NCBI RefSeq assembly: GCF_010993965.1
Contig: NZ_WIXM01000013.1
Coordinates: 1-64,000 of the forward strand
From: Gracilibacillus sp. YIM 98692
Lineage (GTDB): Bacteria; Bacillota; Bacilli; Bacillales; Amphibacillaceae
Length of the DNA: 64,000 bases
Direction: 5' to 3'
Shown: positions 46,453 through 64,000 of the stretch, piece by piece
How the letters are laid out: each line of letters begins with the position of its first letter
Numbering within the stretch: the first letter of the stretch is position 1
Position numbers and translations under genes: made by a program
The notes under the pieces: generated by a model
The model's input: only the letters and a program-made list of their open reading frames with translations
Databases searched by the model: none
Told to the model about the DNA's origin: nothing

Positions 46453-47175
46453 ATGATGCGTACATTATATATAGATTGTTTTTCAGGTATAAGTGGAGAT
46501 ATGACCATTGCATCGTTATTGGATTTAGGGCTTGATTTTGATTATCTTAAAGAGCAGTTACAGAAGTTACGTTTAGAGCAAGAGTATGAATTGACATTAA
46601 GTAATGTTGTGAAAAATGGGATATCCAGTCTTAAATTTGATGTCCAATTTGAAGAGCATCATCACCACCGTACATATAAAGATATTGTAAAGATGATAGA
46701 TGATAGTACCTTAAATGACCAAATCAAAAAGCTATCTAAAGAGATGTTTCGAGTAATTGGAGAGGCAGAAGGAAAAATACATGGAGTAGAATTGGATCGA
46801 GTCCATTTTCATGAAGTTGGAGCTATAGATTCTATTATTGATATCGTTGGTACTGCTATTTTGATTGATCAACTGCAGTTAGATCAAATTATTTCATCGG
46901 CAGTTCCGGTTGGTTCTGGCAACATTCATATAGATCATGGAATTTACCCAGTACCTGCTCCAGCCACGTTAGAAGTGTTAAAGGATGTTCCATTGAAAAA
47001 CAGTGATGTTCAAGGGGAATTGACCACACCAACGGGGGCAGCCATTATAAAAGTTCTAGCACAAGAAATCAGCAATATTCCAAACATGACCGTACAAGAG
47101 GTTGGTTATGGGGCTGGTACTAAAACGTTTGACGATCATCCCAATGTATTACGCACCATGATAGGAACAATATAA
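46453..47175 (+). CDS. larC: LarC N-terminal half (LarC1), nickel-pincer cofactor biosynthesis
   Basis: This 240-residue protein covers only the N-terminal part of LarC, the CTP-dependent cyclometallase that inserts nickel into the pincer cofactor of lactate racemase. Family motifs are YIDCFSGISGDMTIASLLDLG at the start (split), a His cluster EEHHHHRTY, RVHFHEVGAIDSIIDIVG near 118, PVPAPATLEVL near 175 and EVGYGAGTKTFDDHPNVLR near the end. Full-length LarC is about 390-420 residues. This one ends at the natural linker, and the matching C-terminal half begins at 63850, 16.7 kb away. A terminator follows directly. Confidence 0.88.
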   Translation: MMRTLYIDCFSGISGDMTIASLLDLGLDFDYLKEQLQKLRLEQEYELTLSNVVKNGISSLKFDVQFEEHHHHRTYKDIVKMIDDSTLNDQIKKLSKEMFRVIGEAEGKIHGVELDRVHFHEVGAIDSIIDIVGTAILIDQLQLDQIISSAVPVGSGNIHIDHGIYPVPAPATLEVLKDVPLKNSDVQGELTTPTGAAIIKVLAQEISNIPNMTVQEVGYGAGTKTFDDHPNVLRTMIGTI

Positions 47176-47200
47176 TAAAAAGGAAATCTACGAGTTTATT

Positions 47201-47239
47201 AAAAAACCACGGAGAATAATATTTCTCCGTGGTTTTTAT
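47201..47239 (+). terminator. Terminator after larC N-terminal gene
   Basis: AAAACCACGGAGA pairs with TCTCCGTGGTTTT, followed by further T residues. Confidence 0.92.
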
Positions 47240-47342
47240 ATGCTAACCAGTAAAAGTGCTCACTATATTTTTGAAACGAGAAACAAGGCGTCTCTATGAT
47301 TTTTTAAAAAGGCTGTTTTCTAAAGTAGTACATACTAGTGTA

Positions 47343-47423
47343 GGAAATATACGTAGACTCCTGCGGGAAAAGCAACAGCTGAAGCGTTGCCCGCGGAAAG
47401 CGAAGTATATTTCCAAAGCGGTA
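47343..47423. repeat. Intergenic repeat family A, copy 3 (most complete)
   Basis: An imperfect inverted repeat. GGAAATATACGTAGACTCC and CTGCGGGAAAAG on the left face CCCGCGGAAAGCGAAG and TATATTTCC on the right, around AGCAACAGCTGAAGCG. It can fold into a long hairpin. It lies between the larC N-terminal terminator and the end of the AraC-type gene. The rest of the 310-base gap holds nothing else recognisable. Confidence 0.8.
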
Positions 47424-47485
47424 ACCTAACGCTTCAAATGTATGATAAAACCAAAAAAGAGTACGAAAAGTGCCTTTAAAAAACT

Positions 47486-49774
47486 CTAAGCTTGTTTACT
47501 TTTATATTGTGAACGGTATTTCCCTGGCGTGATACCTTCAAGCTTTCTAAATGATCGAATAAAGTTCTGAGAATTATTGTATTGCAATTGTTCCGCTATA
47601 TTTTTTACGGACATATCTGTCGTCGTTAACCACTCTTTTGCTTTATTTAATCGATAACGCAATAGATATTCACTAAAAGAGTATCCAGTCTCTTTTTGAA
47701 AGATACTGCTTAAATAGTTCGGGTTATAATGTAACTCAGCTGCTATCATATCTAGCGATAAATCTTGATTGAAATGGTCTTGAATAAACCGAATCATTTT
47801 ATCCGAAATTCGTTTGTTTTTCGAATCATCCCGTGCTTCGACGCTCTCAATAAGAGGTGAAATAATATCATTTAAGAGCCATGATTGGATTTCTTGTAGC
47901 GAATGAAAATCTTGATAATGTGTAATCATGTCGGTTGATTCCAGATTCTCAATATCTGCGCCTAATAGTTCTTTTAATTCAAATAGCTCATACAAAAACC
48001 TTGATAAAATAACTTCAAGTTGTTGATGGTGAATATCATTTCGATCAATATAATCAAAGAAGCGATTCAATTCATTTATTGCTTCTTCTTTATTACTTAA
48101 TTTAATAGCATCGAACATTTTGTTTTTAATAGCTGATGGATAAGGCGCGACACTAGAATATTTTCTGTTTAAGTTTTCGTAAAATATAATAGAGGAATCG
48201 CCCATTTTTAAGCGGTATTTCAAGGCTTCATTACTTTCTTTAAAAGCTTGTGGAGCCTGATTTAACGCTTCGTAGCGCTTGCTAATACCGATACTGACTG
48301 TTAAATGAAAAAGTTCATACACTTTCTGTTGAATTAATTCGACCTTTTGATTGATATAATGCGTATAATTCGCTTCATTATCACTTTCTGTAATAATAAT
48401 AGTTGATTGTACATCGTTTATGACAACAGGTGTAAATCGTTCAGATGGATCAATGAGATCTTCGATTAAATTATTAATAGCAAATAGAATAAGATCTTGA
48501 TCACTTTTGTTAAATTTATCTTGATCGATAGCATCAAGCTTTAAGGAAAAGATCGTGATCCATGTCCAATTTTGATTATAATGTAATGATTTGACTTTAA
48601 AATCTAATTCGCTATCTCCAACTTTCCCTTGCATTAGACGAATCATAAATAATTGCTTTAATTGTGTCACTTGATTTTGTACACGTTGTTCTAGTCGGTT
48701 ATTTTGACTAAGCAATTTATTAATATGTGTTTCAATAAGATCAAATTCATTTCCACTAACTGTGGATGAATTTTCCTCAATTGCTTGTTTAAGCTTTTTT
48801 ACAGGTTTATAAAGCACTTTACTTCCAATAAATGCAAAACAAATAGAAATCAATAAAAGAATGCCAACAATCCATACAGTAATCCAGCCTATAGAGCTAG
48901 ATCGCATATGCAAATCACTAAGCTTTACAAACGATAGGTAAGTCCAATCGTTGTAAGAAGATGTGTGATACGTTATTTTGTAGGAAGTTCCATTTAAGTC
49001 ATATTCAAATTGCCCTTCTTCTACACTTCTATCTATTTCTTGATAAAGAGCTTGCGGTATATATCCATCTTCACCGGTATAAGATGTGTTGCTGTGAGCG
49101 ATTGGCTGATTACGTTCATCTAAAATTAAAAAAGATTCACTATCATTGCTTTGGGCCATAATCTCTGTCAATTCACATGCAGGCACAAACACACTAATCA
49201 ATCCATAAGGATCGCTTGTAAGCAACGGAAGTTTTTTCACTAAAGTAATATAGTGAGAACAGCTTCGTTTCGTTGCATTTGGTAAGCTGATACGGTCTGC
49301 TTCCCCCATAATCCAATTGGACTTTCCTGGTAATTGAAGATAATTCTTATTAATGTCCTCTTGCATACTCCGCGTAACGGTTACTAATCCATCATTGTTT
49401 ACTAACCAGTTATGATTTAAATTGACAAACACAATATCTTCAATACCTGTCTCCAGTGTTTGTAGATGATTTAAATCCCGTCTAAGCTGATGAAAGTCTG
49501 TAAAGGTAGTTGCATTCAAATTAGTATTAAGGATCTGTTGTGTATGAGTAGATCGGACGAAATAGGTAGTAGATAAATCGATATATTGTAATACTTGTTC
49601 TACATTTGTTTGTATCTGGTAAATATTTTGCTTTTTTTCATCATTCGAATACTCGACAATTGCTTTAGAAGATTGCCAATAAGACAATGCTCCCGTAATA
49701 ATAACGGGAACAGTACTAAGAATGATAAGAAAAGCAATTAATTGAAAATAGTGTTTAGCAGAAAACCTTTTCAT
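47486..49774 (-). CDS. Membrane-anchored AraC-type regulator with extracytoplasmic sensor (YtdP-like)
   Basis: A 762-residue one-component regulator. A first membrane helix at about residues 8-30 and a second near 290-315 (ITVWIVGILLLISICFAFIG) flank an extracytoplasmic Cache-like sensor of about 260 residues. A cytoplasmic linker follows. The C-terminal AraC double helix-turn-helix contains LSLDMIAAELHYNPNYLSSIF and MSVKNIAEQLQYNNSQNFIRSFRKLEG. Size and layout match B. subtilis YtdP, encoded with a rhamnogalacturonan transporter. AAGGAAG lies too close to ATG 49780, so ATG 49774 is chosen. It probably controls the divergent pectin operon; ATAATNATTAT clusters in that control region are candidate sites. 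Confidence 0.88.
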   Translation of the reverse strand: MKRFSAKHYFQLIAFLIILSTVPVIITGALSYWQSSKAIVEYSNDEKKQNIYQIQTNVEQVLQYIDLSTTYFVRSTHTQQILNTNLNATTFTDFHQLRRDLNHLQTLETGIEDIVFVNLNHNWLVNNDGLVTVTRSMQEDINKNYLQLPGKSNWIMGEADRISLPNATKRSCSHYITLVKKLPLLTSDPYGLISVFVPACELTEIMAQSNDSESFLILDERNQPIAHSNTSYTGEDGYIPQALYQEIDRSVEEGQFEYDLNGTSYKITYHTSSYNDWTYLSFVKLSDLHMRSSSIGWITVWIVGILLLISICFAFIGSKVLYKPVKKLKQAIEENSSTVSGNEFDLIETHINKLLSQNNRLEQRVQNQVTQLKQLFMIRLMQGKVGDSELDFKVKSLHYNQNWTWITIFSLKLDAIDQDKFNKSDQDLILFAINNLIEDLIDPSERFTPVVINDVQSTIIITESDNEANYTHYINQKVELIQQKVYELFHLTVSIGISKRYEALNQAPQAFKESNEALKYRLKMGDSSIIFYENLNRKYSSVAPYPSAIKNKMFDAIKLSNKEEAINELNRFFDYIDRNDIHHQQLEVILSRFLYELFELKELLGADIENLESTDMITHYQDFHSLQEIQSWLLNDIISPLIESVEARDDSKNKRISDKMIRFIQDHFNQDLSLDMIAAELHYNPNYLSSIFQKETGYSFSEYLLRYRLNKAKEWLTTTDMSVKNIAEQLQYNNSQNFIRSFRKLEGITPGKYRSQYKSKQA

Positions 49775-49818
49775 AGACATACTTCCTTATCATATTATAT
49801 TCCAAATAATAAATGTAA

Positions 49819-50484
49819 CTAAAAGGATGATGTAGTTACTTGTTCTTGTTGCTCAAGTTGTTCTTGTTGTTTTTTCAACAATTGTTGGAAACCGAGGTGA
49901 GCTAAAAACATCACAACGTAAGCGCTAACACTAAAACTGAAAAATAAACCGATCCCAGGATATTTAAAAGACAGAAAGTAAATACCAGCTAATATTGTAA
50001 GTGCACAAATAGAATAATGCAGATTAACTGCACCAATAGTGACAGCATAACGGATATATTGCCAAAAGGTTAGTTCAAAATGCACAAAAACAGGTGCAAT
50101 ATACAAGATCAGCATAACGTAGAAAAATGAAGCTATGATAAATAGTCCTAGTAAAATAGGATAAAGTGAACTATTATGCATAAACCCAGTATATTGAAGA
50201 AATACAGATAAGAAATAACCTATTACATATACTATTATACCAAAAAGGTTGGCACGAACAAAGTAAACTTTAAATTGCTGGAAAAAAACATCAAATACCT
50301 GAAAATCCGTTTCTTTCAGTACCCATTTTCGAACAACGGTAAACATAGCGATTGTTGCAGGCATTAGACCGAAAAATACTAATCCTAATAAAGTAAAAAG
50401 CAACCATAATATATTGAGCCAAGCAAACCGTGTTACCCATAAACTGAAACGGTAAAGGTTTGCCCACATGCCTGTCATTTCCAT
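49819..50484 (-). CDS. YesL family (DUF624) membrane protein, pectin locus
   Basis: A 221-residue membrane protein with about five helices. It shows the DUF624 N-terminal pattern WLNILWLLFTLLGLVFFGLMPATIAMFTVVRKW, split here at the helix boundary, and a C-terminal Gln-rich tail KKQQEQLEQQEQ. It is paralogous to the YesL-type protein at 44114-44740. Its gene is co-directional with and 44 bases upstream of the AraC-type regulator, so they likely form one transcript. The divergent partner is the binding-protein gene. Start ATG follows GGGGGGC. The molecular role of the family is unknown. Confidence 0.83.
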   Translation of the reverse strand: MEMTGMWANLYRFSLWVTRFAWLNILWLLFTLLGLVFFGLMPATIAMFTVVRKWVLKETDFQVFDVFFQQFKVYFVRANLFGIIVYVIGYFLSVFLQYTGFMHNSSLYPILLGLFIIASFFYVMLILYIAPVFVHFELTFWQYIRYAVTIGAVNLHYSICALTILAGIYFLSFKYPGIGLFFSFSVSAYVVMFLAHLGFQQLLKKQQEQLEQQEQVTTSSF

Positions 50485-50558
50485 TATATATGCCCCCCAT
50501 TTTTTGAAATATTGCTATCCATAGGATACCTTTTTCCAATCTTTTAGTAAATATTTAA

Positions 50559-50572
50559 TTAAAGCGTTTTCA
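50559..50572 (-). promoter_or_regulatory. CcpA cre site upstream of pectin-locus yesL-type gene
   Basis: The plus strand reads TTAAAGCGTTTTCA, one mismatch from the cre consensus. It lies 75 bases before the minus-strand start codon. Confidence 0.6.
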
Positions 50573-50576
50573 CTGT

Positions 50577-50690
50577 ATAATCATTATGTGATATGCCTTC
50601 ACCCCTTGCCATAATAAGGTTTAAATCGATATGATTATTTGAAATAATCATTATATAACAACATGATAAGAGCTGGGTAATAATGATTAT
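50577..50690. promoter_or_regulatory. Cluster of three ATAATNATTAT palindromes
   Basis: Exact copies of the 11-base palindrome ATAATNATTAT lie at 50577-50587, 50644-50654 and 50680-50690, inside the divergent control region. Around the second, ATGATTATTT (50631-50640) and AAATAATCAT (50642-50651) form a perfect 10-bp inverted repeat with a single central base. A fourth copy precedes the permease genes (52569-52579). They are candidate binding sites for the local AraC-type regulator. This is an inference from clustering. The remainder of this 358-base region holds cre and promoter elements only. Confidence 0.6.
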
Positions 50691-50723
50691 TTTGCGAAAT
50701 TTTCAAAAAATTACGCTTTGTGC

Positions 50724-50737
50724 GGTAAGCGTTTACA
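50724..50737 (+). promoter_or_regulatory. CcpA cre site at pectin operon promoter
   Basis: GGTAAGCGTTTACA differs from TGTAAGCGTTTACA only in the first base. It overlaps a possible -35. Confidence 0.7.
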
Positions 50738-50761
50738 TAGTTTCTGAAAAAGTGATTATAT
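50733..50761 (+). promoter_or_regulatory. Possible promoter of the pectin operon
   Basis: TTACAT (50733-50738) and TTATAT (50756-50761), 17 bases apart. Both are weak matches, consistent with need for an activator, and the cre site overlaps the -35. Confidence 0.45.
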
Positions 50762-50842
50762 ACAAATATAAAAGTTTTCCTTACTATTAAAAGTGTACAA
50801 TTAATCTTGTGCAAACAAAAATATTTTTGGAGGGTGGTTAAT

Positions 50843-52399
50843 TTGAGTCATTTTAAAAAAGTAATCGCATTCATGTTATTTATGCTTCTATTAATAGTAG
50901 CAGTAGCATGTAACTCATCTGAAAGTGGAGGAGAAGAAGAAAATCAATCAGATGATAACAATTCTAATTCTAATGAAGAAACAGCGGATTCTGATGGAGG
51001 GGAGTCATCAGATGAACCATTTTCATTCTCCTTAATGGCAAATCTTCATACACCTGAAGTACCAGAGGAAAAGGTGTTAGAAGAAATCGAAGGAATTACG
51101 AATACAGATGTTGAAATTCAATGGGTTCCAGACAATAACTATGAAGATCGTCTGAACACGGCTTTTGCAACAAACTCATTGCCTGATGCAGTTTTCCTGA
51201 AAAATCAAACAACGTTTATTCAGTTCCGTGATGCCATTGAAGATGATCAATTCTGGGAAATCGGTCCGTACTTAGATGAGTTTGAAAACTTACAGAAACT
51301 TAAAGATAACGTATTAGATAACACAAGAGTAAATGGAAACTTATATACCTTGTATCAAGGACGTCCTTTATCTAGACAAGGGATGATTTATCGTAAAGAC
51401 TGGGCAGATAATCTAGGGTTAGAAGCACCAACAACAACAGAGGAATTTATGGAAATGGCACGTGCTTTTACAGAGGATGACCCAGATGGAAATGGGGAAA
51501 ATGATACATTTGGTGTAACAGATCGTAGTGATTTAATTTACGGTGCATTTAAAACGGTTTCATCTTGGTTCGGTACACCTAACTATTGGGGTGAAAAAGA
51601 CGGCCAGCTATTACCTGAATTCATGTTCGATGAGTATGTACAAACAATGGATTTCTTTAGAGAAATGCACGAAAATGGCTATATTAACCAAGATTTCCCT
51701 GTAACTAGTAAAGTAGATCAACAAGAATTTATTAAAAATGGATCTGCTGGTATTTATGTAGGTTCCATGGGGGATGTTATCAGTCTTTATAATGATGCAG
51801 TCGCTATTAATCCAGATGTAGAATATGATGTTCACAATTATGTAGAAGGACCAGATGGTGAATTTGGTGTTTGGGCAATCCCTGGCTTTGGTAACTTAGT
51901 TATGTTCCCTAAGAGCTCTGTTGAAACAGAAGAGGACTTAAAGAAAATTTTAGGATTCTTTGACAGTTTAATGGCGCCGGAAGTGGCAAACTTATCTTAC
52001 TGGGGCTTGGAAGGAGAGCATTACGAAGTAGTAGATGGAAGTGCTAAGGTGACAGACGATCAAGCGAAGTTTGACCGTGAAGTAAAACCTTACCAAGCAA
52101 TTGGAATTGGTGAACCTGAAACAAATGGCCGTTATGAAGGGTTCTTTGAGTATGAACCAAAAGCGAAATCAGAGGAACTGTTCAAAGATAACGAAAACTA
52201 TTTAATTGAAGATCCTACTGTTCCGCTTTACTCTGAGACATATGTTCAAGATGGTGCTCGTTTACAGCAAATCATTACTGACGCAACTTATCAATATATT
52301 TTAGGTCAAACAGATCTAGAAGGATTTGAGGCAGCAATTGAAGATTGGAAGTCTCAAGGTGGAGAAGACATTATCGAAGAATTTAACGCATCTGAATAA
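50843..52399 (+). CDS. LplA/YtcQ-type oligosaccharide-binding lipoprotein
   Basis: A 518-residue solute-binding lipoprotein for an LplABC-type transporter. The signal peptide ends IVAVAC, with Cys23 as lipid anchor, followed by a 40-residue Ser/Asn/Glu/Asp linker. The binding domain starts FSFSLMANLHTPEVPEEKV and includes RLNTAFATNSLPDAVFLKN, RKDWADNLGLEAPTTTEEF and DPDGNGENDTFGVTDRSD, a probable Ca2+-type loop of this family. The ligand is presumably unsaturated or acetylated (rhamno)galacturonan oligomers, judged from the enzymes downstream. TTG 50843 after GGAGGGTGG is chosen; the frame extends further upstream without a start signal. An unusually perfect hairpin follows the gene. Confidence 0.9.
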   Translation: MSHFKKVIAFMLFMLLLIVAVACNSSESGGEEENQSDDNNSNSNEETADSDGGESSDEPFSFSLMANLHTPEVPEEKVLEEIEGITNTDVEIQWVPDNNYEDRLNTAFATNSLPDAVFLKNQTTFIQFRDAIEDDQFWEIGPYLDEFENLQKLKDNVLDNTRVNGNLYTLYQGRPLSRQGMIYRKDWADNLGLEAPTTTEEFMEMARAFTEDDPDGNGENDTFGVTDRSDLIYGAFKTVSSWFGTPNYWGEKDGQLLPEFMFDEYVQTMDFFREMHENGYINQDFPVTSKVDQQEFIKNGSAGIYVGSMGDVISLYNDAVAINPDVEYDVHNYVEGPDGEFGVWAIPGFGNLVMFPKSSVETEEDLKKILGFFDSLMAPEVANLSYWGLEGEHYEVVDGSAKVTDDQAKFDREVKPYQAIGIGEPETNGRYEGFFEYEPKAKSEELFKDNENYLIEDPTVPLYSETYVQDGARLQQIITDATYQYILGQTDLEGFEAAIEDWKSQGGEDIIEEFNASE

Positions 52400-52419
52400 G
52401 GATTTGGATTAATGGCAGT

Positions 52420-52453
52420 TGGGCTCTTAAAATGACTAGATTTTAAGAGCCCA
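52420..52453 (+). terminator. Perfect 14-bp stem-loop between binding protein and permease genes
   Basis: TGGGCTCTTAAAAT pairs with ATTTTAAGAGCCCA without mismatch around GACTAG. No T tract follows, so it is more likely a 3' stabiliser of the binding-protein mRNA or a processing barrier than a full terminator. Confidence 0.65.
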
Positions 52454-52528
52454 TCCCATATCAAGAACAATTAACAAACGAAATGATCATTATGTTATGT
52501 TAGTTGCTTCAACTTTTATTCAAATTCT

Positions 52529-52542
52529 TGATAACGCTTTAA
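52529..52542 (+). promoter_or_regulatory. cre-like site upstream of permease genes
   Basis: TGATAACGCTTTAA matches TGWNANCGNTNWCA except at the 13th base. Confidence 0.5.
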
Positions 52543-52568
52543 CATCAGTCATGTCAGTAACTCGTAAG

Positions 52569-52579
52569 ATAATGATTAT
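52569..52579. promoter_or_regulatory. Fourth ATAATNATTAT palindrome
   Basis: ATAATGATTAT, the same 11-mer as the cluster at 50577-50690, 78 bases upstream of the permease start. Together with the cre-like site this suggests separate control of the permease-to-kduD transcript. Confidence 0.5.
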
Positions 52580-52656
52580 TTACGTTATGAAGGGGTTAGC
52601 GTACGATGTAATCAAACATAAAAAGACAATTATTTTAAAAAGAAAGGATACTGCTT

Positions 52657-53619
52657 ATGGAAACGACTACTTTAACACCACGGGAAGAAGCAAGACAGTT
52701 GAAGAAAATGAAGAAGGCTGAGACGTGGCGAAGAATTAAAAGAAATAAAATGATCTATCTAATGATTCTGCCTGGTTTGCTTTATTTCTTAATCTATAAG
52801 TATCTGCCAATGTACGGTTTAATTATCTCTTTTCAAGATTACAAACCTTACAAAGGGATTGCGGGAAGTGAATGGGTAGGATTAGAGCATTTCCACCGAT
52901 TAGTCACAAGTTCTGAGTTCTGGATGATCTTTAAAAACACATTAGTATTGTTCGGGCTGCAAATTTTCATTTTCTTCCCAATACCTATCATTATTTCATT
53001 GATGTTAAATGAAGTGCGTCATACGTTTTTTAAGAAAGGTGTACAGACGTTAATTTATATTCCACACTTTATGTCATGGGTGGTTATCGTCTCGATTTCG
53101 TATGTCATGTTAACACTTGATGGCGGTATCATTAACGCTATTATCGAATCATTAGGGTTTGAAAAAATTAATTTTTTACTAAATGATGATTGGTTCCGGC
53201 CAATGTATATTCTGCAGGTAATATGGAGAGAAGCTGGTTGGGGAACGATTATCTTCTTGGCAGCAATTACTGCTGTAGATCCACAGTTATATGAGGCTGC
53301 AAGAATGGACGGGGCCAACCGTTTCCGTCAAATGTGGCATATCACACTGCCGGCTATCCGTAACGTTATCATCGTTTTGTTAATTTTGAAAATTGGGGAT
53401 GTTTTAGAACTAGGTTTCGAGCATGTGTACCTATTATTAAATTCCTCGAACCGTAATGTCGCTGAAATTTTTGATACGTATGTATATGTTGCTGGTTTAC
53501 AACAAGGTCAGTTCAGCTACAGTACCGCAGTTGGTTTCTTTAAAGGGGCTGTCGGTTTGGTAATGGTTGTCTTTGCCAACTGGCTAGCGAAGAGATTTAA
53601 CGAAGAAGGTATTTATTAA
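52657..53619 (+). CDS. LplB/YteP-type ABC transporter permease
   Basis: A 320-residue permease of the LplB family. It has a positively charged N-terminus, then YLMILPGLLYFLIYKYLPMYG, ISFQDYKPYKGI, and the EAA loop LYEAARMDGANRFRQMWHITLP near residue 215. The LNSSNRNVAEIFDTYVYVAGL segment between the last helices is typical. It pairs with the next permease and the binding protein upstream. AAAGAAAGGA precedes the ATG. No ATPase gene is present; a shared MsmX-type ATPase is expected. Confidence 0.92.
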   Translation: METTTLTPREEARQLKKMKKAETWRRIKRNKMIYLMILPGLLYFLIYKYLPMYGLIISFQDYKPYKGIAGSEWVGLEHFHRLVTSSEFWMIFKNTLVLFGLQIFIFFPIPIIISLMLNEVRHTFFKKGVQTLIYIPHFMSWVVIVSISYVMLTLDGGIINAIIESLGFEKINFLLNDDWFRPMYILQVIWREAGWGTIIFLAAITAVDPQLYEAARMDGANRFRQMWHITLPAIRNVIIVLLILKIGDVLELGFEHVYLLLNSSNRNVAEIFDTYVYVAGLQQGQFSYSTAVGFFKGAVGLVMVVFANWLAKRFNEEGIY

Positions 53620-53646
53620 TTACAACGAATAGGAGAGGTGAACGAG

Positions 53647-54528: not shown

Positions 54529-54554
54529 TAGTTTATCGAGAGGAAGTCTGGTAG

Positions 54555-55681: not shown

Positions 55682-56899
55682 TTGATACAATCTGTGAAGT
55701 TAGATAAGGAAAAGCGTCTATCGAAGGATGCAATAAATATTCTCATTAATCACGCTATTTTTCAATTTGGTGGATCCTTATCGATTATTTTTGTCAATTT
55801 ATATCTATGGCGGTTAACCAATAGTTTATGGGTTAATGGCATGTATAATTTAGTCGCACTTCTTGCTCAAGCAGCAACAACAATCATGATTGGAAAGATG
55901 TCCAAGAGAAAGGGCAGAACAACGATATATCGTTATGGTATTTTTATGACTGCTCTTTTTTATTTGCTCATTGTCCTGATACGTGAAGACATCGTCACCT
56001 ATTTTTATTTATTTGCATTACTAAGAGGGTTAGCACAAGGGTTATATTGGGTGGCTTATTTCACGATTGTACATGAAGTATCTTCAGATCAAAATCGCCA
56101 TCGATACTTAGGCTGGAATCAAATGGTGATGGGATCGAACAACCTTTTAGCACCTGCTCTAGCTGGGTTTGTCATCGGGCTGTTCACAGGGTTAACAGGG
56201 TATATGATTGTCTTTTCTATCGCATTTTGTATGTTTTTTATTGCAACGATTAGAAGTTTTCGTTTTAAAAAAGAGTCTATTCGACATCGCAATTACTATA
56301 TGAAGTATTTGGGACTAATTCTAAAAAAGGAAAAAGCATTTAAAAGTGCTTTAATCGGATGGTTTGTTATTGGGTTTCCGCAAGGGATATTGATGTATAT
56401 TCCGCCCATTTTAATTTATAGCATTTTCGAAAATGAAGGGGTTGTAGGATACTTGAATGCTGGTTTTTTAGCTGTATCGATCCTTTCCAGTTATGTGATA
56501 TCAAGATTCGCTAATATTGCACATACCAAAAGATATTTGTGGATTGCGGGTACAGGCTTCCTGTTAGCGGGTAGTTTTTTAACATGGGAAATTGCGATTT
56601 GGAGCGTTATTGTATTTATGGTTACCTTAAATATATTTAAACCATTGCAAGCGAATGCTTACGCAGCTTACTACTTCCAATGGATAAACCGAATTCCATT
56701 GGGTTCAGAGTTCCGTGTGGAATCAGTCGTTTTAAGAGAAACGATTATCAATATCGGGCGCGGGCTTGGGATTATATCATTTATGGTTTTTTCGGATGGC
56801 ATTAATACCAATACAGTCGCGTATGTCATTTTATTTGCCATGTTGATTCAATTATTATTACCAATTTTAATTAAAACGAAAGAGGGGAAGAAGTCATAA
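55682..56899 (+). CDS. MFS transporter in pectin operon
   Basis: A 405-residue major facilitator protein with about 12 helices. Notable segments are HAIFQFGGSLSIIFVNLYLW, MIGKMSKRKGRTTIYRYG between helices 2 and 3, and the motif ALLRGLAQGLYWVAYFTIVHE. A late WINRIPLGSEFRVESVVLRE cytoplasmic segment is present. The substrate could be a monosaccharide or uronate exported or imported during pectin use; this is not shown by sequence. It starts at TTG 55682 with a weak GAAAGAAG site. Its stop overlaps the kdgF start (TAATG), so the two are coupled. Having both an ABC and an MFS system in one operon suggests substrates of different size. Confidence 0.85.
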   Translation: MIQSVKLDKEKRLSKDAINILINHAIFQFGGSLSIIFVNLYLWRLTNSLWVNGMYNLVALLAQAATTIMIGKMSKRKGRTTIYRYGIFMTALFYLLIVLIREDIVTYFYLFALLRGLAQGLYWVAYFTIVHEVSSDQNRHRYLGWNQMVMGSNNLLAPALAGFVIGLFTGLTGYMIVFSIAFCMFFIATIRSFRFKKESIRHRNYYMKYLGLILKKEKAFKSALIGWFVIGFPQGILMYIPPILIYSIFENEGVVGYLNAGFLAVSILSSYVISRFANIAHTKRYLWIAGTGFLLAGSFLTWEIAIWSVIVFMVTLNIFKPLQANAYAAYYFQWINRIPLGSEFRVESVVLRETIINIGRGLGIISFMVFSDGINTNTVAYVILFAMLIQLLLPILIKTKEGKKS

Positions 56900-57210
56900 T
56901 GAGTATAAATCAATGGGAAAAGGCAGAACCAGGCGTACAGAGAAGAATCCATTCTCCTGGTAAAGAAGTAATGATGATGGAGGTTCTCTTTGAAGAAGGA
57001 GCAGAAGGTTCTTCTCATCATCATCCACATGAACAACTAACTTATTGTGTCGAAGGAAAATTAGCTTTTCATGTAAATGGAGAAGAAAAAGTGATCGAAG
57101 CAGGAGAATCCTTACATATCCCATCTAATGCGGAACATGGAGTCAAAGCATTAAAGAGAAGTAAAATAATCGATATGTTTACACCACTTCGAGAGGATTT
57201 ACTAGGTTAG
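56899..57210 (+). CDS. kdgF: KdgF-type cupin, unsaturated uronate ring-opening enzyme
   Basis: A 103-residue single-domain cupin. The metal-binding motif reads SSHHHPHEQLTYCVEGKLAF, with His and Glu ligands near residues 38-46. The second cupin motif is GESLHIPSNAEHGVKAL with a further His near 80. It ends FTPLREDLLG, a characteristic KdgF tail. KdgF speeds conversion of 4,5-unsaturated galacturonate to 5-keto-4-deoxyuronate, the substrate of KduI, which is encoded in the same operon. It is coupled to the MFS gene by a one-base overlap. Confidence 0.88.
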   Translation: MSINQWEKAEPGVQRRIHSPGKEVMMMEVLFEEGAEGSSHHHPHEQLTYCVEGKLAFHVNGEEKVIEAGESLHIPSNAEHGVKALKRSKIIDMFTPLREDLLG

Positions 57211-57221
57211 GAGGGAAATGG

Positions 57222-58736
57222 ATGAGTTTTAATACTATCACAGAATACGGGGCAGTCGGAGACGGTAAGGTCATGAATACAAACTTTATTCAAAAAGCCA
57301 TTGATAGCTGTGCTGAAAGTGGAGGTGGAACAGTCTATGTTCCAACGGGTGCCTTTTTAACAGGGCCTATTTCTTTAAAGAGTCATATCACGCTTTATTT
57401 AGAAGCGGGGGCGACGTTACGTTTTACGGATGATTTTGAAAAGTATCCAGTTGTAAAGACTCGCTGGTCAGGCTATGTTTGCCATGGTTTTATGCCGCTT
57501 ATTTTTGCAGAAAATGTATCAAACACCGCTATTAAGGGCGACGGGGTGATTGATGGAAATGGAGAAGCTTGGTGGAACATCAACCGTCGGTTAAGAAGAA
57601 AAGAAACTTATATATCGCAGAAAACAGAGGAAATAGCCCATGCGAATCGAGATTTTACAGAACCTGCGGATACTAATTTAGTAGAGTGGCCTTCACAATT
57701 TTTAAGGCCTCCATTAGTTCAATTTTATCAAGCCAAACATATTGAAATATCTGGTGTCACCGTGAAAAATTCGCCGTTTTGGAATACACACCTCGTCTTT
57801 TGTGATGATGTATCGATTCATCGGGTGAAATTTCAAAATCCTTCTGATACACCAAATGGGGATGGGTTGGATTTAGACTCTTGTCAAAATGTACGCTTAT
57901 CGGATTGCCACTTTGATGTTGGGGATGATTGTGTTGTATTGAAATCTGGTATCAATGCTGATGGCCGTCATTATGGAGTTCCGACGAAGAATGTTACTGT
58001 GACAAATTGTACGATGCATCACGGACATGGCGGTGTTGTTTTTGGCAGTGAAAACTCCGGTGGAATAGAAAATGTGACGGTCTCTAATTGTGTATTTGAA
58101 GGAACTGATCGGGGTATCAGAATCAAAACAAACCGAGAGAGAGGAAGCTATATCCGTAATATCTTAGTGAATAATATCCTGATGGAAGATGTTCTATGTC
58201 CAATTGCGATTAATTCTTTCTATCGGCATGGAGTCAGCAAAAGCAATCAAGAGTTGTTAGATGCTGCTAAAATTCCCGTAAGTGAAAAAACCCCAGTTGT
58301 TGAACAAATTCGTATCAGCCATATTACTGCCAAAAATTGCCGTGCAGCAGCAGGCTTTATTTATGGCTTACCCGAAATGCCTGTAAAAGAAGTAAGTTTA
58401 GAGCATGTAACATTGGAAATGACACAGGATGAAACGGTTCCTGGCGGAGAGCCGGATATGGTGCGAGAAGTGATTGAAATGGCTGGTGAAGGCATTTTTG
58501 CGAAATATGTAGAAGATTTAACTGTCCATCATGCGCGAGTCTTAACAAGAAAAGGACCTGCATTAACTGTAGAAGCGTCTGATCAGATTGTATTAGATCA
58601 AGTCTCCTTAAAAAATGAGCCGTTAAATACTCCGGTTGTGACTTATCAAGATACGAATAACATTCATGTGAATGGTCTTCAGTCTGATCAGTTAGGCGAG
58701 TCTTATTTAAAAGAAAAAACAGGGAAGTTGGTGTAA
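57222..58736 (+). CDS. GH28 polygalacturonase-family hydrolase, intracellular
   Basis: A 504-residue right-handed beta-helix enzyme of GH28. It starts NTITEYGAVGDGKVMNTNFIQ. It keeps the catalytic set: DTPNGDGLDLDSC near residue 212, VGDDCVVLKSG near 234, GHGGVVFGSE near 268 and RIKTNRERGSY near 300. No signal peptide is seen, so it acts on imported oligosaccharides, most likely as an exo-acting galacturonidase or rhamnogalacturonan oligomer hydrolase. GGAGGGAAATGG precedes the ATG. Pairing with KdgF/KduI/KduD is notable, because hydrolysis gives saturated galacturonate while these enzymes use unsaturated or keto sugars. Confidence 0.9.
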   Translation: MSFNTITEYGAVGDGKVMNTNFIQKAIDSCAESGGGTVYVPTGAFLTGPISLKSHITLYLEAGATLRFTDDFEKYPVVKTRWSGYVCHGFMPLIFAENVSNTAIKGDGVIDGNGEAWWNINRRLRRKETYISQKTEEIAHANRDFTEPADTNLVEWPSQFLRPPLVQFYQAKHIEISGVTVKNSPFWNTHLVFCDDVSIHRVKFQNPSDTPNGDGLDLDSCQNVRLSDCHFDVGDDCVVLKSGINADGRHYGVPTKNVTVTNCTMHHGHGGVVFGSENSGGIENVTVSNCVFEGTDRGIRIKTNRERGSYIRNILVNNILMEDVLCPIAINSFYRHGVSKSNQELLDAAKIPVSEKTPVVEQIRISHITAKNCRAAAGFIYGLPEMPVKEVSLEHVTLEMTQDETVPGGEPDMVREVIEMAGEGIFAKYVEDLTVHHARVLTRKGPALTVEASDQIVLDQVSLKNEPLNTPVVTYQDTNNIHVNGLQSDQLGESYLKEKTGKLV

Positions 58737-58738
58737 TA

Positions 58739-60307
58739 ATGAAAACATTTAAAAACCCTATCATTCCTGGTTTTTACCCAGATCCGTCTATTTGTCGTGT
58801 AGGTGAGGATTATTACTTAGTAACATCCAGCTTTGAATATTTTCCCGGCGTTCCGATTTTCCACAGCAAGGATTTAGTCCATTGGAAACAAATCGGACAT
58901 GTGTTGGACCGACCGGAACAATTGAACCTAGATCAAACCCCGAATTCCAGAGGTATTTATGCTCCAACGATTCGTTATCATGATGGCGTATTTTATATGA
59001 TTACAACCTTTGTGGTAAGTCAAACAGGAGCAAGGAAGAATTTTTATGTAACAGCAAGCGATCCAGCGGGACCTTGGTCAGAGCCTCATTGGTTAGAAGG
59101 AGCGCCTGGCATTGATCCATCTTTATTTTTTGATGATGATGGAAAGGTTTATTACACAGGAAATCGTAAGCCTCCTAGCGGTCGTCAATATAAGAAACAT
59201 AATGAGATCTGGCTTCAAGAATTGGACTTAGAGAAAAAACAGCTAGTTGGACCAACTTACAGCTTATGGGATGGGGCTTTAAAAAATGCACACGCACAAG
59301 AGGCTCCACATCTTTACAAGATAAATGGCTGGTATTATCTCATTATTGCAGAGGGAGGGACTGGTCATACACATGCGGTCACAATTGCGCGTAGTAAAGA
59401 GGTGACAGGCCCTTATGAAATGACCGAAACAAATCCCATTTTAACGCATCGTCATTTGGGAAATCACCATCCGATTGTCAATGTGGGGCATGCCGATATA
59501 GTAGAAACACAGCATGGAGATTGGTGGATGGTCTGTCTAGCGTCACGCCCATATGGAGGCTATTATAGAAACCTTGGAAGAGAAACCTTCCTTGTTCCTT
59601 TCATTTGGGAAGATGGCTGGCCGATCGTCAATCCAGGTAAGGGCCTGATTGAAGAAGAGATGGAGTTTCCGAATTTAGAAGAACATAAATGGCCAGAACT
59701 GCCGTATGCCGATTCTTTTGAAGCGGATCAATTAGATGACCGTTGGAATTTTTTGCGAACACCAAGAGGTGACTTTTGGTCCTTGACCGAACGTCCAGGC
59801 TATTTACGTTTAAAAGCAAAAAAAGAAACGATTATGGAAGAAGAAAATCCAGCATTTGTAGGACGAAGACAGCAACATATTAATTTTTTAGCACAAACAG
59901 TGATGGAGTTTACTCTTTCTTCTGCAAATGAGACAGCTGGCTTAGTGCTTTTACAAAACCATCAATATCAATTCCGTATGGAAGTGATATTAGAGAACGG
60001 ACAAACGTTTATTCAGCTTATAAGGCGAGAAGATGGAATAGACGAGGAGGTAGCGAAAGAAAAGGTAGCATCCTCAACATTGTATTTAAAAGTAGAAGCA
60101 AGAGGGCAAGCCTACAGCTTTTATTTTACGGAAAAAGCATTTGATTGGAAGGAATTGGCGGTTGGAGTAGATGGAACCATCTTAAGTACAGATAAAGCTG
60201 GAGGTTTTGTCGGAGCTTACCTTGGTATGTATTGTTCGGCAAACGGTTCGGAAAGTACCAATGCTGCTGACTTTGATTGGTTTGAATATCATGGAATAGA
60301 CAGTTAA
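58739..60307 (+). CDS. GH43 beta-xylosidase/alpha-L-arabinofuranosidase-type enzyme
   Basis: A 522-residue two-domain GH43 protein. The five-bladed propeller begins KNPIIPGFYPDPSICRVGEDYYLV with the base Asp15. PGIDPSLFFDDDGKVYYTG holds the second Asp near 128. AHAQEAPHLYKINGWYYLI holds the acid Glu near 190. A C-terminal beta-sandwich from about residue 330 (GDFWSLTERPGYLRLKAKKE) is the usual GH43_C2 domain of XynB-type enzymes. No signal peptide is present. In this pectin context removal of arabinose, xylose or galactose side-chain residues is likely; the specificity is not determined. The start lies two bases after the GH28 stop. Confidence 0.9.
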   Translation: MKTFKNPIIPGFYPDPSICRVGEDYYLVTSSFEYFPGVPIFHSKDLVHWKQIGHVLDRPEQLNLDQTPNSRGIYAPTIRYHDGVFYMITTFVVSQTGARKNFYVTASDPAGPWSEPHWLEGAPGIDPSLFFDDDGKVYYTGNRKPPSGRQYKKHNEIWLQELDLEKKQLVGPTYSLWDGALKNAHAQEAPHLYKINGWYYLIIAEGGTGHTHAVTIARSKEVTGPYEMTETNPILTHRHLGNHHPIVNVGHADIVETQHGDWWMVCLASRPYGGYYRNLGRETFLVPFIWEDGWPIVNPGKGLIEEEMEFPNLEEHKWPELPYADSFEADQLDDRWNFLRTPRGDFWSLTERPGYLRLKAKKETIMEEENPAFVGRRQQHINFLAQTVMEFTLSSANETAGLVLLQNHQYQFRMEVILENGQTFIQLIRREDGIDEEVAKEKVASSTLYLKVEARGQAYSFYFTEKAFDWKELAVGVDGTILSTDKAGGFVGAYLGMYCSANGSESTNAADFDWFEYHGIDS

Positions 60308-60327
60308 AAGGAAAAGAGGCAAAAAGC

Positions 60328-61005
60328 ATGAGTATACAGCTTTTTTTAGCAGGAGATTCCACCATGTCAGATTATGATTACACTCGATACCCGCGAATGG
60401 GGTGGGGACAAGTGTTATCAGATTATTTGGACGAGAGAGTGAATGTTCGAAATCATGCTGCATCAGGAAGAAGCAGCAAGTCTTTTATTGATGAAAAAAG
60501 ATGGACAGAAATGGAGAAACAGTTTCAAAAAGGCGATTACCTGGTTATCCAATTCGGCCATAATGATCAAAAGCCTGATGAGGAGAGGGCGACACAACCA
60601 TTTTCTAGCTATCAAGATAATTTACGTTTCTTTATTCGGCAAGGACGCTCTAACGGTGTGTGTCCAATCCTCTCCACATCGATTGCACGCCGACATTTTA
60701 ACAAAAAGGGTGAGCTTCAAGACACACATGGAGAGTATCTAAAAGCAGTAAGAGATTTGGCGAAAGAGGAAGAAGTTCCTTTGGTAGATATGGCGAAATT
60801 GACGGGCGCTGCTTTACAAGAGCTTGGCGATCAACGTTCCAAAGAATGGTTTATGTGGGCAGATCCTGGTGTTTATGAAGCTTACCTTAATGGAGAAAAA
60901 GACGATACGCATTTAAATGAAACGGGTGCTAGGGAGCATGCTAAATTATTTGTTAGAGAAATCGTGCGTATGGATCATCCGCTTAATGAATACGTCAAGT
61001 TATAA
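60328..61005 (+). CDS. SGNH-family rhamnogalacturonan acetylesterase
   Basis: A 225-residue GDSL/SGNH hydrolase. The block I nucleophile is in LFLAGDSTMSDYD (Ser near residue 11). Block II has ASGRSSKSFIDE, block III QFGHNDQKPDEE (Asn and Asp) and block V DDTHLNETGAREHA with the catalytic Asp and His near 196-199. These features match the CE12 RhgT/YesT group, which removes acetyl groups from rhamnogalacturonan fragments. Lack of a signal peptide indicates cytoplasmic action, like RhgT. AGGAAAAGAGG precedes the ATG. Confidence 0.9.
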   Translation: MSIQLFLAGDSTMSDYDYTRYPRMGWGQVLSDYLDERVNVRNHAASGRSSKSFIDEKRWTEMEKQFQKGDYLVIQFGHNDQKPDEERATQPFSSYQDNLRFFIRQGRSNGVCPILSTSIARRHFNKKGELQDTHGEYLKAVRDLAKEEEVPLVDMAKLTGAALQELGDQRSKEWFMWADPGVYEAYLNGEKDDTHLNETGAREHAKLFVREIVRMDHPLNEYVKL

Positions 61006-61020
61006 ATGGGGGAGTGTTTT

Positions 61021-61851
61021 ATGGAAATTCGTTATGCGAACCATCCGGAGGAAATAAAGCGATATAATACGGGAGAGTTGCGTGAGAAGTTTCTAGTGGA
61101 AAAGCTTTTTGAGCAGGGGAAGATAAGTCTTACATACTCCCATGTGGATCGTATGATTTTTGGCGGCGTGACACCTGCTTTGGAGGATTTAACCATTCAA
61201 TTGGATAAGCAAATTGGAGTGTCTTACTTCCTCGAACGACGTGAATTAGGCATTATTAATATCGGTAATGATGGGTATGTTCTGTTAGATGGAGAAAAGT
61301 ATGAGATGAATCGGCATGACGGGCTTTATGTTGGTCGAGGAACGAAAGAGGTATGGTTTGGTTCTCATGATCCGGCAAAACCGGCAAAGTTTTATATTAA
61401 TTCAGCGCCAGCACATCATACTTATCCAACGGTAAAAATTGATATAAAAGATATTCAGCCATTAGAATTAGGAAAATCAGGGACACTTAATGAACGAAAA
61501 ATTCATCGATATATTCACCCGAATGTGTGTGAAAGCTGCCAATTACAAATGGGACTGACCATGTTAATGCCAGGAAGTGTATGGAATACAATGCCAGCTC
61601 ATACACATGAGCGCCGAAGCGAGGTGTACTTGTATTTTGATATGGAAGAAGATACAAGAGCTTTTCACTTTATGGGAGAACCAAGTGAAACAAGGCATTT
61701 AGTATTAAAAAATGAGCAAGCTGTGATATCGCCGAGCTGGTCGATTCACTCTGGTGTAGCAACAAGTCATTACACGTTTATTTGGGGAATGTGCGGGGAA
61801 AACATTTCATACGATGATATGGATCATATTAAGATGAGTGAATTGCGTTAA
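61021..61851 (+). CDS. kduI: 5-dehydro-4-deoxy-D-glucuronate isomerase
   Basis: KduI converts 5-keto-4-deoxyuronate (DKI) to 2,5-diketo-3-deoxygluconate. The 276-residue protein starts MEIRYANHPEEIKRYNTGEL. Its zinc site is in MPAHTHERRSEVYLYFDME, with the His pair and Glu near residues 196-203, and a later His in SWSIHSGVATSHYTFIWGM near 245. ATG 61006 lies upstream and includes the GGGGGAG site; ATG 61021 gives the usual N-terminus and correct spacing. It lies between the acetylesterase and kduD. Confidence 0.94.
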   Translation: MEIRYANHPEEIKRYNTGELREKFLVEKLFEQGKISLTYSHVDRMIFGGVTPALEDLTIQLDKQIGVSYFLERRELGIINIGNDGYVLLDGEKYEMNRHDGLYVGRGTKEVWFGSHDPAKPAKFYINSAPAHHTYPTVKIDIKDIQPLELGKSGTLNERKIHRYIHPNVCESCQLQMGLTMLMPGSVWNTMPAHTHERRSEVYLYFDMEEDTRAFHFMGEPSETRHLVLKNEQAVISPSWSIHSGVATSHYTFIWGMCGENISYDDMDHIKMSELR

Positions 61852-61863
61852 GGAGGTTGCTGG

Positions 61864-62646
61864 ATGACAGTTGGAATAGAAGGTTTTTCGCTGGATTTTT
61901 TCTCGTTAAAAGGGAAGGTAGCAATCGTAACTGGCGGAAACACTGGATTAGGGCAAGCCTATACTGTTGCTTTAGCGAAAGCTGGGGCAAATGTCTATGT
62001 GGTGACACATGGGACAAATTGGGAGGAAACGAAGCAGTTAGTAGATACTGCTGAAGGAGACGTGGAGTTTTTACAAGCAGATTTGACCGATCGTAAGCAG
62101 ATAAGGGCAATTGTGCCATCGTGTCAAGATGTATTTGACACTGTTGATATTTTAGTGAATAATGCAGGAACAATAAGAAGAAATCCATTGCTGGAGTTTA
62201 AGGAGGAGGACTGGGATGATGTACTCTCCTTAAATTTGGATGCTGTCTATTTGTTAAGTCAAGAAGCAGCTAAAGTGATGGTGGAAAAAGGTTCAGGTAA
62301 AATCATTAACATTGCTTCGATGCTATCTTTTCAAGGAGGTAAGTTTATTCCGCCATACACAGCCAGTAAGCATGCCATTGCTGGATTAACGAAATCTTTC
62401 GCTAACGAACTAGCAGAGCACGGTGTGCAAGTAAATGCTATTGCGCCAGGGTATTTTAAAACAAAAAACACGGCACCAATACGGGAAGATGAAAAACGAA
62501 ATACTGAGATTTTATCACGGATACCAGCAAACAAATGGGGAGACCCAAGCGAATTAATGGGAACTGTCGTATACCTAGCAAGCAATGCTTCCGATTATAT
62601 GAATGGACATGTACTAGCCGTCGACGGAGGATGGTTAGCCAGATAA
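61864..62646 (+). CDS. kduD: 2-dehydro-3-deoxy-D-gluconate 5-dehydrogenase
   Basis: A 260-residue short-chain dehydrogenase that reduces 2,5-diketo-3-deoxygluconate to 2-keto-3-deoxygluconate with NADH. The cofactor loop is AIVTGGNTGLGQAYTVAL, followed by DILVNNAGTIRR. The catalytic Ser is in INIASMLSFQGG and Tyr/Lys are in PPYTASKHAIAGL. FSLDFFSLKGKVA and the C-terminal VLAVDGGWLAR are typical of KduD. AAGGAGG precedes the ATG. It is the last gene of the operon. KdgK and KdgA, needed to finish the pathway to pyruvate and glyceraldehyde-3-phosphate, are not in the window. Confidence 0.93.
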   Translation: MTVGIEGFSLDFFSLKGKVAIVTGGNTGLGQAYTVALAKAGANVYVVTHGTNWEETKQLVDTAEGDVEFLQADLTDRKQIRAIVPSCQDVFDTVDILVNNAGTIRRNPLLEFKEEDWDDVLSLNLDAVYLLSQEAAKVMVEKGSGKIINIASMLSFQGGKFIPPYTASKHAIAGLTKSFANELAEHGVQVNAIAPGYFKTKNTAPIREDEKRNTEILSRIPANKWGDPSELMGTVVYLASNASDYMNGHVLAVDGGWLAR

Positions 62647-62685: not shown

Positions 62686-62749
62686 ATAAAGATATAGTAT
62701 AAAAATCATGCACAAAATCCATAAACTCCCTCAGTTAGATTCTATTTTC

Positions 62750-62990
62750 TCAAAAATGCTGCGCAGTAACTTATAAATATTATCCTCCCACTCATTTAAC
62801 GATGAGTGGTTAATCTCGCTTCGGAAAAACACTCGCTTTCACCTAAGGGCACAAGTGCGACATCTACTCAAGCTTCCTTTGGTCGCTTTCGCAGTGTCTT
62901 CTTTGCCGTGCTCCCGGAAAGCGAAGTATATTTCTGGAGCGGTCTTCAGAGCTTTTTTAAGACTTATGTCGCAGTTTTGTTCTAATGAGA
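62750..62990. repeat. Intergenic repeat family A, copy 4 (long form)
   Basis: It contains TCCTCCCACT, ACGATGAGTG and TTAATCT, also found at 17140-17180. CCCGGAAAGCGAAGTATATT is shared with copies 1 and 3, and GTCGCAGTTTTGTTCTA resembles copy 1. The centre (62830-62910) has extra sequence. The rest of the roughly 500-base gap between kduD and yyaC is AT-rich, with nothing else identified. Confidence 0.7.
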
Positions 62991-63140
62991 ATTAGTTTGA
63001 ATAAAGCAGATAGGAACGGGCGAGTTTTGGCTGTTTTTTTATTTTATTAGTTAATCTAGTTTTTCCTAATTTTTTTCATAGGTGTATAGAATGTGTATGA
63101 AATTCATATACTACTACTATGATAGATAGGAGGAGAAACT

Positions 63141-63722
63141 ATGAATTCACAGAGGTTGTCTGAAAATAAGCAATTTTACCACTATCAAGAACCTAAACTT
63201 ACAGAGTATTTAAGCGAAATGATTACTCGGTCCATTCCGTATGAGAATCATCACGTTGTTGTCATTTGTATCGGTACTGATCGATCTACAGGCGATTCTT
63301 TAGGCCCTCTCACCGGAACACTCCTTTCTGAAAATAACCATTCCAACATGACGATATACGGAACATTAGCTAACCCAGTCCACGCTGTTAACCTTCAAGA
63401 AAAAATAAAAGAGATTCATACTACTTACAAAAAACCTTACATTATTGCAATAGATGCTTGCCTGGGGAAAATGAAAAATGTCGGTTTCATTATGGCTGCG
63501 GCAGGCCCTTTAAGCCCGGGCAAGGCATTAAAAAAGGATCTATCAAAGGTAGGGGATATGCACATTACAGGTATAGTAAATGTAGGAGGGTTTATGGAGT
63601 ATCTTGTTTTACAAAATACAAGATTACATACAGTCATGGAAATGGCCAAAAAAATGGCGGAAATCTTACATCAAGTAGATATTCGGCTATCTAATAGAGA
63701 GAATAAAAAAGTTATAAATTAA
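63141..63722 (+). CDS. yyaC: Spore protein YyaC (DUF1256)
   Basis: A 193-residue protein of the YyaC/DUF1256 family, related to the germination protease GPR fold. Typical segments are VVICIGTDRSTGDSLGPLTGT near residue 40, YGTLANPVHAVNL, IAIDACLGKMKNVGFI near 105, and VGDMHITGIVNVGGFMEYLVLQ near 140. In B. subtilis yyaC is expressed in the forespore; a peptidase role is predicted. Its presence shows the organism is a spore former. AGGAGGAG precedes the ATG. It stands alone before the larC C-terminal gene. Confidence 0.92.
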   Translation: MNSQRLSENKQFYHYQEPKLTEYLSEMITRSIPYENHHVVVICIGTDRSTGDSLGPLTGTLLSENNHSNMTIYGTLANPVHAVNLQEKIKEIHTTYKKPYIIAIDACLGKMKNVGFIMAAAGPLSPGKALKKDLSKVGDMHITGIVNVGGFMEYLVLQNTRLHTVMEMAKKMAEILHQVDIRLSNRENKKVIN

Positions 63723-63849
63723 ATTTTACTTAATTGTTTAAAGATGCGAGTTATTGTAAAGCTACTGATTTATCTTCAGACGAGTGCATCCCCCATTAGG
63801 TTATGTTAAAATATTCACAAAAATGCGAGACGAGCTGAGGTGAATAGAG

Positions 63850-64000
63850 ATGGTGATGCATCCTCCAGATCAGGAGCATACAGATGATCAAATGATAAAG
63901 GTCGAAGTGAATTTAGATGATACACCTGGGGAATGGCTTGGTTATGTAATGGACAAGTTGTTTGAAGCTGGGGCAAATGATGTATATTATACACCGATTT
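63850..64000 (+). CDS. larC: LarC C-terminal half (LarC2), cut by window end
   Basis: An open frame runs to the window end: MVMHPPDQEHTDDQMIKVEV, then NLDDTPGEWLGYVMDKLFEA and GANDVYYTPI. The V-NLDD-TGE-LGYVMD-LFEAGA-DV-YTPI pattern is the start of the C-terminal domain of LarC, which binds CTP and metal. GAGGTG seven bases before the ATG indicates independent translation. The N-terminal half is a separate gene 16.7 kb upstream (46453-47175). Only about 50 of an expected 150 residues are visible. Confidence 0.85.
   Translation, partial: MVMHPPDQEHTDDQMIKVEVNLDDTPGEWLGYVMDKLFEAGANDVYYTPI

Follow-up and report, generated by a model that had tools for sequence, protein, structure and literature searches.

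The LarC enzyme of Gracilibacillus sp. YIM 98692 is very probably composed of two polypeptides that work in trans, encoded by larC1 and larC2, two genes that lie far apart with a pectin-type locus between them. As described in PMC11796402, the insertion of nickel into P2TMN by LarC depends on CTP. Because related species keep the same arrangement, a genuine two-part enzyme is most likely, rather than a broken gene. A naturally two-subunit LarC had already been raised as a possibility in the initial annotation, and it is the best reading of two halves that are conserved, under selection and found throughout the genus.

Two LarC genes on either side of a pectin locus

The window (the whole 64,000-nucleotide stretch analysed) corresponds to C5:1-64000 of a 69-contig, 4.37 Mb draft assembly, and only the first 151 bases of larC2 fall inside it, with the remainder beyond its right edge (Table 1). 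A profile search of the whole assembly with PF01969 matched exactly two places, C5:46465-47181 and C5:63847-64287, and no other LarC, including the second intact larC considered in the initial annotation, was present on any of the 69 contigs. Both proteins score well above the cut-offs of curated models, with 225.2 bits for LarC1 (TIGR00299, nickel_LarC1; cut-off 90) and 156 bits for LarC2 (NF052512, nickel_LarC2; cut-off 50), so that the latter is a true LarC2 and not an unrelated DUF. Judged by these profile matches, larC1 and larC2 are complementary halves of LarC.

Table 1. Positions of the LarC genes, their putative signals and associated loci (window coordinates unless a locus is named).
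Feature	Position	Strand	Basis or remarks
larC1, N-terminal half of LarC	46453..47175	+	240 aa; PF01969 positions 1-235, 321.7 bits; TIGR00299
larC2, C-terminal half of LarC	63850..64000 in window, end at contig position 64323	+	157 aa; PF01969 positions 234-375, 171.8 bits; NF052512
Ribosome-binding-like sequence of larC1	46439..46448	+	By eye from sequence
Ribosome-binding-like sequence of larC2	63835..63842	+	By eye from sequence
Hairpin 3′ of larC1, possible terminator	47202..47237	+	36-base inverted self-match, 89%
E-H-T-D of the free-standing-LarC2 leader	63874..63885	+	[EQ]HxD motif
Pectin-type locus between the halves: AraC-type regulator, ABC sugar-uptake genes, GH28-type, GH43, GDSL esterase, kduI, kduD	47486..62646	.	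Family matches
yyaC, spore protease gene directly before larC2	63141..63722	+	TIGR02841, 213.4 bits, cut-off 84.9
Repeat copy 3′ of larC1	47380..47422	+	Self-comparison
Repeat copy between the pectin genes and yyaC	62909..62943	+	Self-comparison
larB-FGGY kinase-larE-SDR-LarA group 22 as one locus	L072:402-5705		Family matches

As the initial annotation had stated, the halves are separate genes, each preceded by its own ribosome-binding-like sequence, and their open reading frames are 16,674 bp apart. Because this distance and minus-strand genes separate them, joining by frameshift or by readthrough is impossible, and the genes are neither overlapping nor adjacent on one mRNA. In Lactiplantibacillus plantarum the same two halves are encoded by overlapping larC1 and larC2 genes that are joined by frameshifting, whereas here 16.7 kb with opposite-strand genes lies between them. 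The hairpin downstream of larC1 was absent from the output of a simple terminator scan; around larC2 the scan returned 3 terminator-like sites against 1.0 expected, and promoter scans gave no excess over shuffled sequences (5 vs 4.2 and 3 vs 6.2). The histidine-rich stretch of window LarC1 is very short (46651-46671); at the same place relatives such as G. timonensis carry a long histidine-rich insert (L032:8580-9443).

The stretch between the halves contains the pectin-type genes listed in Table 1, followed by yyaC. The GH28-type gene matches polygalacturonase models, all below the NCBIfam cut-offs, and given the gene content of the stretch as a whole the label "pectin locus" is fair. The position of yyaC between the pectin genes and larC2 is peculiar to the window, without a match in the 16 other genus regions compared. 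Extending the sequence to the right, as the initial annotation had advised, completed larC2, but larA, larB and larE did not follow: in the 15 kb examined larC2 stands alone, with opposite-strand genes and then a LacI-type regulator, uxaE and uxaC beyond it.

The partner genes are instead on contig C1, where larB, an FGGY kinase gene, larE and an SDR gene accompany the only LarA homologue of the genome, a member of nickel-pincer nucleotide (NPN) isomerase group 22 (545 bits, cut-off 400); LarB, LarE and a LarA homologue are therefore all encoded in the genome. All 17 Gracilibacillus genomes have one LarA-type protein, one LarB and one LarE above cut-off (LarB and LarE each in two pieces in G001), with genes that cluster in every genome except G008, a fragmented draft; where the genome is a single contig, >1.5 Mb separates this locus from larC. 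A gluconokinase model is the best match of the kinase, under its cut-off, and the SDR is mannonate-oxidoreductase-like, just under cut-off; together they suggest a sugar-acid substrate, which we consider likely for LarA group 22. D-gluconate 2-epimerases fall in groups 19 and 20 according to PMC7583248.

Separate and fused LarC in the order and class

In an even sample of the order, LarC2 was found in 91 of 397 genomes, each of which also has a LarC1 domain, either separate or fused. The 92 LarC2 places in these genomes fall into many arrangements. A single uninterrupted ORF accounts for 25 of them (including the half-degenerate gene that accompanies larC1 in G465), and in 9 the search ran across stops and merged the halves (the 6 examined are neighbouring ORFs). 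The halves are adjacent genes in 25 places and 0.8-0.9 kb apart in 5. In another 9 they share a strand at a distance of 3.7-23 kb, in 4 their order is reversed, in 6 their strands are opposite (with no more than 0.9 kb between them in 4 of the 6) and in 9 their contigs differ. Thus, in 28 of the 92 places the halves are >3 kb apart, reversed, or differ in strand or contig. Separate larC1 and larC2 genes are not new in themselves, since they occur commonly in the order and NCBIfam has a model for each; a description of distant LarC halves as a two-subunit enzyme was not found in titles and abstract openings of the open-licence literature.

Among 80 named loci, larC1 adjoins larC2 in 46, larB lies between them in 8 and gntK-larB in 5 (with larA22 in 4 of the 5), and in 21 the flank examined lacks larC1. 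Rows for G008, G109 and G153 were dropped, as the stretches examined contain no larC2. Proteins of the same split type are encoded in Bacillus, Neobacillus, Heyndrickxia and others, where many loci have the two genes after larA22-larE-gntK-larB, but there larC1 and larC2 are neighbours, unlike those of the window, and co-transcription is therefore possible. In Oceanobacillus and Aquibacillus (larC1-...-larB-larC2) the halves are parted by other genes, as in the window, although the intervening genes belong to the NPN system (larB, or larA22-gntK-larB) and not to a pectin locus; in several of these genomes the LarC halves bookend larA22-SDR-gntK-larB. Anaerobutyricum larC1 and larC2 are also named as two genes, with an encoding called "scattered" in PMC7702098, and their tags (EHLA_1342 and EHLA_1341) suggest that they are neighbours there.

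A tree of the LarC2 domain, built from 102 rows and few columns with the leader removed, divided the fused from the separate type at a branch with 98% SH-aLRT support, and G317, G389, G465 and L222 also fell on the fused side. In the LarC1 tree, which included 18 of the 20 fused LarC (two were lost through the domain-cutting rule), 62 split-type rows grouped at 90% and other two-gene lineages fell outside. As read from the sequences, separation of LarC arose more than once.

Five genomes (G465, G628, G572, G731 and G818) have genes that match the whole of PF01969 with a degenerate N-terminal half. The gene order in G465 is larE-larB-larC1-larC'. The 397 aa product of larC' retains 31 of the 67 residues conserved in LarC1 and 26 of the 28 conserved in LarC2; its score with the LarC1 profile is 146.6 bits, compared with 410.8 bits for the neighbouring larC1. 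G731 and G818 pair larC1 with a LarC2 whose N-terminal domain keeps 17 of 67. Because G628 and G572 have a complete LarC (split or fused) alongside the half-degenerate gene, the pair of larC1 and a half-degenerate larC occurs only in G465, G731 and G818. Duplication with reciprocal degeneration is thus one route to separate halves.

Other lineages, including family f68 of the class sample, have LarC2 with an N-terminal extension of 140-250 aa. Profile comparison of the extension with LarC1 put the probability at 2.4% for L215, L216, L217, L227, L240-L244 and L222, 3.0% for L089, L213 and L221, and 59% for L218, L219, L220, L234 and L235; the LarC1 HMM matched one extension weakly (L216, 9 bits, E 0.00064) and none of the rest. 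Therefore, a degenerate LarC1 origin is clear only for the genes that match the whole of PF01969. In the 2.4% and 3.0% groups LarC2 is the C-terminus of ORFs of ~290-400 aa, the N-terminal part of these ORFs belongs to no clear family, and that of the single ORF scanned (L089) had no Pfam match. In G742 (L214:3144-4271) an ORF of 375 aa begins with LarC2 and continues into a C-terminal part resembling DinB/YfiT. A LarC2-like protein of 186 residues from Methanopyrus kandleri has a solved structure (PDB 3c19, MK0293) and is uncharacterised. The presence in other lineages of LarC2 with a degenerate LarC1 domain is apparently new and suggests repeated division.

In the wider class, a LarC2-type match without a LarC1 half (PF01969) was found in G552, G607, G641 (a single contig) and G671, and LarC1 without LarC2 in G590 and G613, so the LarC1-LarC2 partnership is not universal outside the order and other functions for these lone halves are possible. 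One might extend this to Gracilibacillus and propose that the halves no longer cooperate, with LarC1 alone inserting nickel or LarC2 acting as an independent CTP-dependent enzyme on another substrate. The lone halves in 6 wider-class genomes, and the LarC2 proteins elsewhere whose second domain is degenerate or unrelated, would fit such a proposal, but we consider it unlikely given that a LarC1 domain is present in 91 of 91 order genomes with LarC2 and that both window halves retain the residues they have in common with fused LarC.

Arrangement and selection in Gracilibacillus

In the GTDB family to which the organism belongs, LarC was found in 50 of 159 genomes, in 49 of them as two or more pieces and in G008 as the N-terminal half alone; a one-piece LarC was present in none of the 50. 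Therefore, no one-piece larC was broken in this genome, contrary to the initial annotation's other suggestion that a rearrangement had disrupted an ancestral larC here, and what changed in this genome is what sits between the halves.

LarC is present in all 17 Gracilibacillus genomes and both halves in 16, the 17th being G008, a 73% complete draft with larC1 alone close to a contig end. The gap between the halves is about 11.5-24.5 kb in 15 of the 16 (slightly smaller in G001 and G004), and in G002 and G012 the halves are on opposite strands. These same 15 regions, the window included, have a matching block between the halves, as identified by BLAST to the window genes, and the comparison of relatives that the initial annotation had proposed thus finds the halves apart around the same pectin locus. 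The AraC regulator, SBP, lplB, lplC, MFS and GH43 genes are in all 15, and GH28 and the GDSL esterase in most; these labels come from BLAST, with family checks for some only, and names such as araP, lplB and MFS are presumptive. The outer flanks are equally constant, with arabinose genes upstream in 16 of 16 and LacI-uxaE beyond larC2 in 15 of 16 (missing in G014 within the stretch examined). The one exception in spacing is G. timonensis, in which the halves are adjacent, 145 bp apart, within the same outer flanks and the block is missing. Because G. timonensis is placed inside the genus in both gene trees (LarC1 and LarC2), loss of the block there is weakly favoured.

The initial annotation had also pointed to repeat copies as possible recombination points. 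The copies after larC1 and before yyaC are indeed there and are 86% identical over 35 bp, but recombination between them as the cause of the separation is unsupported. The core of this dispersed repeat has 75 copies in the genome (window 14-34, 47393-47413 and 62914-62934 among them), and among the 15 other Gracilibacillus regions a match to the repeat is present in 5 and absent from 10, so it fails to account for the shared arrangement; the halves are separated in the same manner in 9 of the 10 regions without it. Several copies of the core sit near contig starts.

Window LarC1 keeps all 67 conserved residues and window LarC2 all 28, conserved columns being those at least 95% identical among 81 LarC1 domains (split and fused) and 81 LarC2 rows, respectively. 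NG86 dN/dS for four close pairs of relatives was 0.093-0.178 for larC1 and 0.054-0.100 for larC2, compared with control values of 0.035-0.039 for uxaE (2 pairs), 0.043-0.103 for GH43 (4 pairs) and 0.038-0.135 for LacI (3 pairs); a fifth pair, the one with the window species, was saturated, leaving 4 of 5 usable. Although larC1 evolves faster than larC2 and most controls, these ratios indicate purifying selection on both genes, and we saw neither loss of conserved residues nor, in the pairs of relatives from which dN/dS derives, relaxed selection. The larC1 gene is in two frames in the drafts G001 and G004, and the LarC1 tree and conservation counts exclude these broken copies. The larB and larE genes of G001 are likewise in two pieces, which points to sequence errors in that draft.

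These results make it very improbable that a recent rearrangement broke larC and left the halves as decaying remnants. The wide separation, the foreign locus between the halves and the two-frame larC1 of the two drafts could be read in this way, but the arrangement recurs in 15 of 16 genus regions, every conserved residue is retained under purifying selection, and one-piece LarC is missing from the family genomes that have LarC. Still harder to credit is an assembly error that fused distant contigs or left a full-length larC concealed: the window comes from a draft of many contigs, but the halves are also separated in the single-contig genomes G002, G012 and G013 and the outer flanks are syntenic, so that this concern of the initial annotation is answered.

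A probable LarC enzyme of two parts acting in trans

Both halves of the window species match fused LarC (PF01969; PDB 12bi-12bl, 414 aa) along their length and keep the residues common to fused and split forms, but fused LarC is one polypeptide whereas the window LarC comes from two distant genes. A second difference is a short N-terminal leader on free-standing LarC2, typically PPN-EHID-xxMxK. Among sequences from profile searches, an [EQ]HxD leader was present in 58 of 62 split LarC2, the window protein having one, and in 0 of 20 fused LarC. The four split proteins that differ are those of G080, in which the start is called inside the leader, G356, with QHID further in on a longer ORF, and the fused-type splits G317 and G389. 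The leader was also found in 79 of the 80 named loci, a figure biased by retrieval patterns that included it. The [EQ]HxD leader on separate LarC2 is apparently new.

When LarC2 from G. dipsosauri was modelled as a single chain with AlphaFold2 (mean pLDDT 93.0; 68 for the first ten residues), the first strand comprised residues 10-23 and included the leader. The best PDB match of the model is 6bwo (TM 0.84/0.89), which, like 6bwq and 6bwr, is a structure of the LarC2 domain solved alone, titled LarC2 of lactate racemase cofactor cyclometallase. LarC2 of G. dipsosauri is thus predicted to fold alone, and the leader may have a role in docking or assembly. Post-translational joining of the polypeptides, for example by a split intein, is scarcely conceivable: no support for it was found, and LarC1 ends three residues past its domain and LarC2 starts ~18 residues before its core, which is too little for intein parts.

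From the structures of LarC2 and the histidine-rich character of LarC1, LarC2 would carry the CTP chemistry and LarC1 would handle nickel. For the preferred reading of a two-part enzyme, LarB and LarE, encoded with the LarA-group-22 isomerase elsewhere in the genome, would make the precursor P2TMN, and LarC1 (the nickel and substrate half) and LarC2 (the CTP half), made from separate genes, would act on it in trans. By analogy with fused LarC and from the literature, LarC2 would supply the site of CTP-dependent cytidinylylation and LarC1 that of nickel insertion. The two proteins presumably associate physically, perhaps via the strand that contains the conserved LarC2 leader, and NPN, once complete, would pass to the single LarA homologue, which is probably a sugar-acid epimerase. 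As for the history of the arrangement in Gracilibacillus, it is possible that bookend halves were inherited, that the operon between them moved off and that the pectin locus settled in its place.

We put forward only tentatively, as a doubtful extension of the two-part reading, that the halves form a relay of two enzymes. Here LarC2, as a free-standing cytidinylyltransferase, would activate P2TMN and pass the cytidinylylated intermediate to a separate LarC1 for nickel insertion, docking by the [EQ]HxD leader, and the division would have evolved more than once, partly by larC duplication and reciprocal loss, with one copy minus its C-terminal half and the other with a decaying N-terminal half (G465, G731 and G818).

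With the LarC domains supplied by distant genes, the CTP and nickel steps could be assayed, titrated and swapped singly. Many Bacilli would be misjudged by surveys that require a one-piece LarC or one encoded next to LarA. In other lineages, the half-degenerate genes offer a case of one enzyme repeatedly splitting into two genes.
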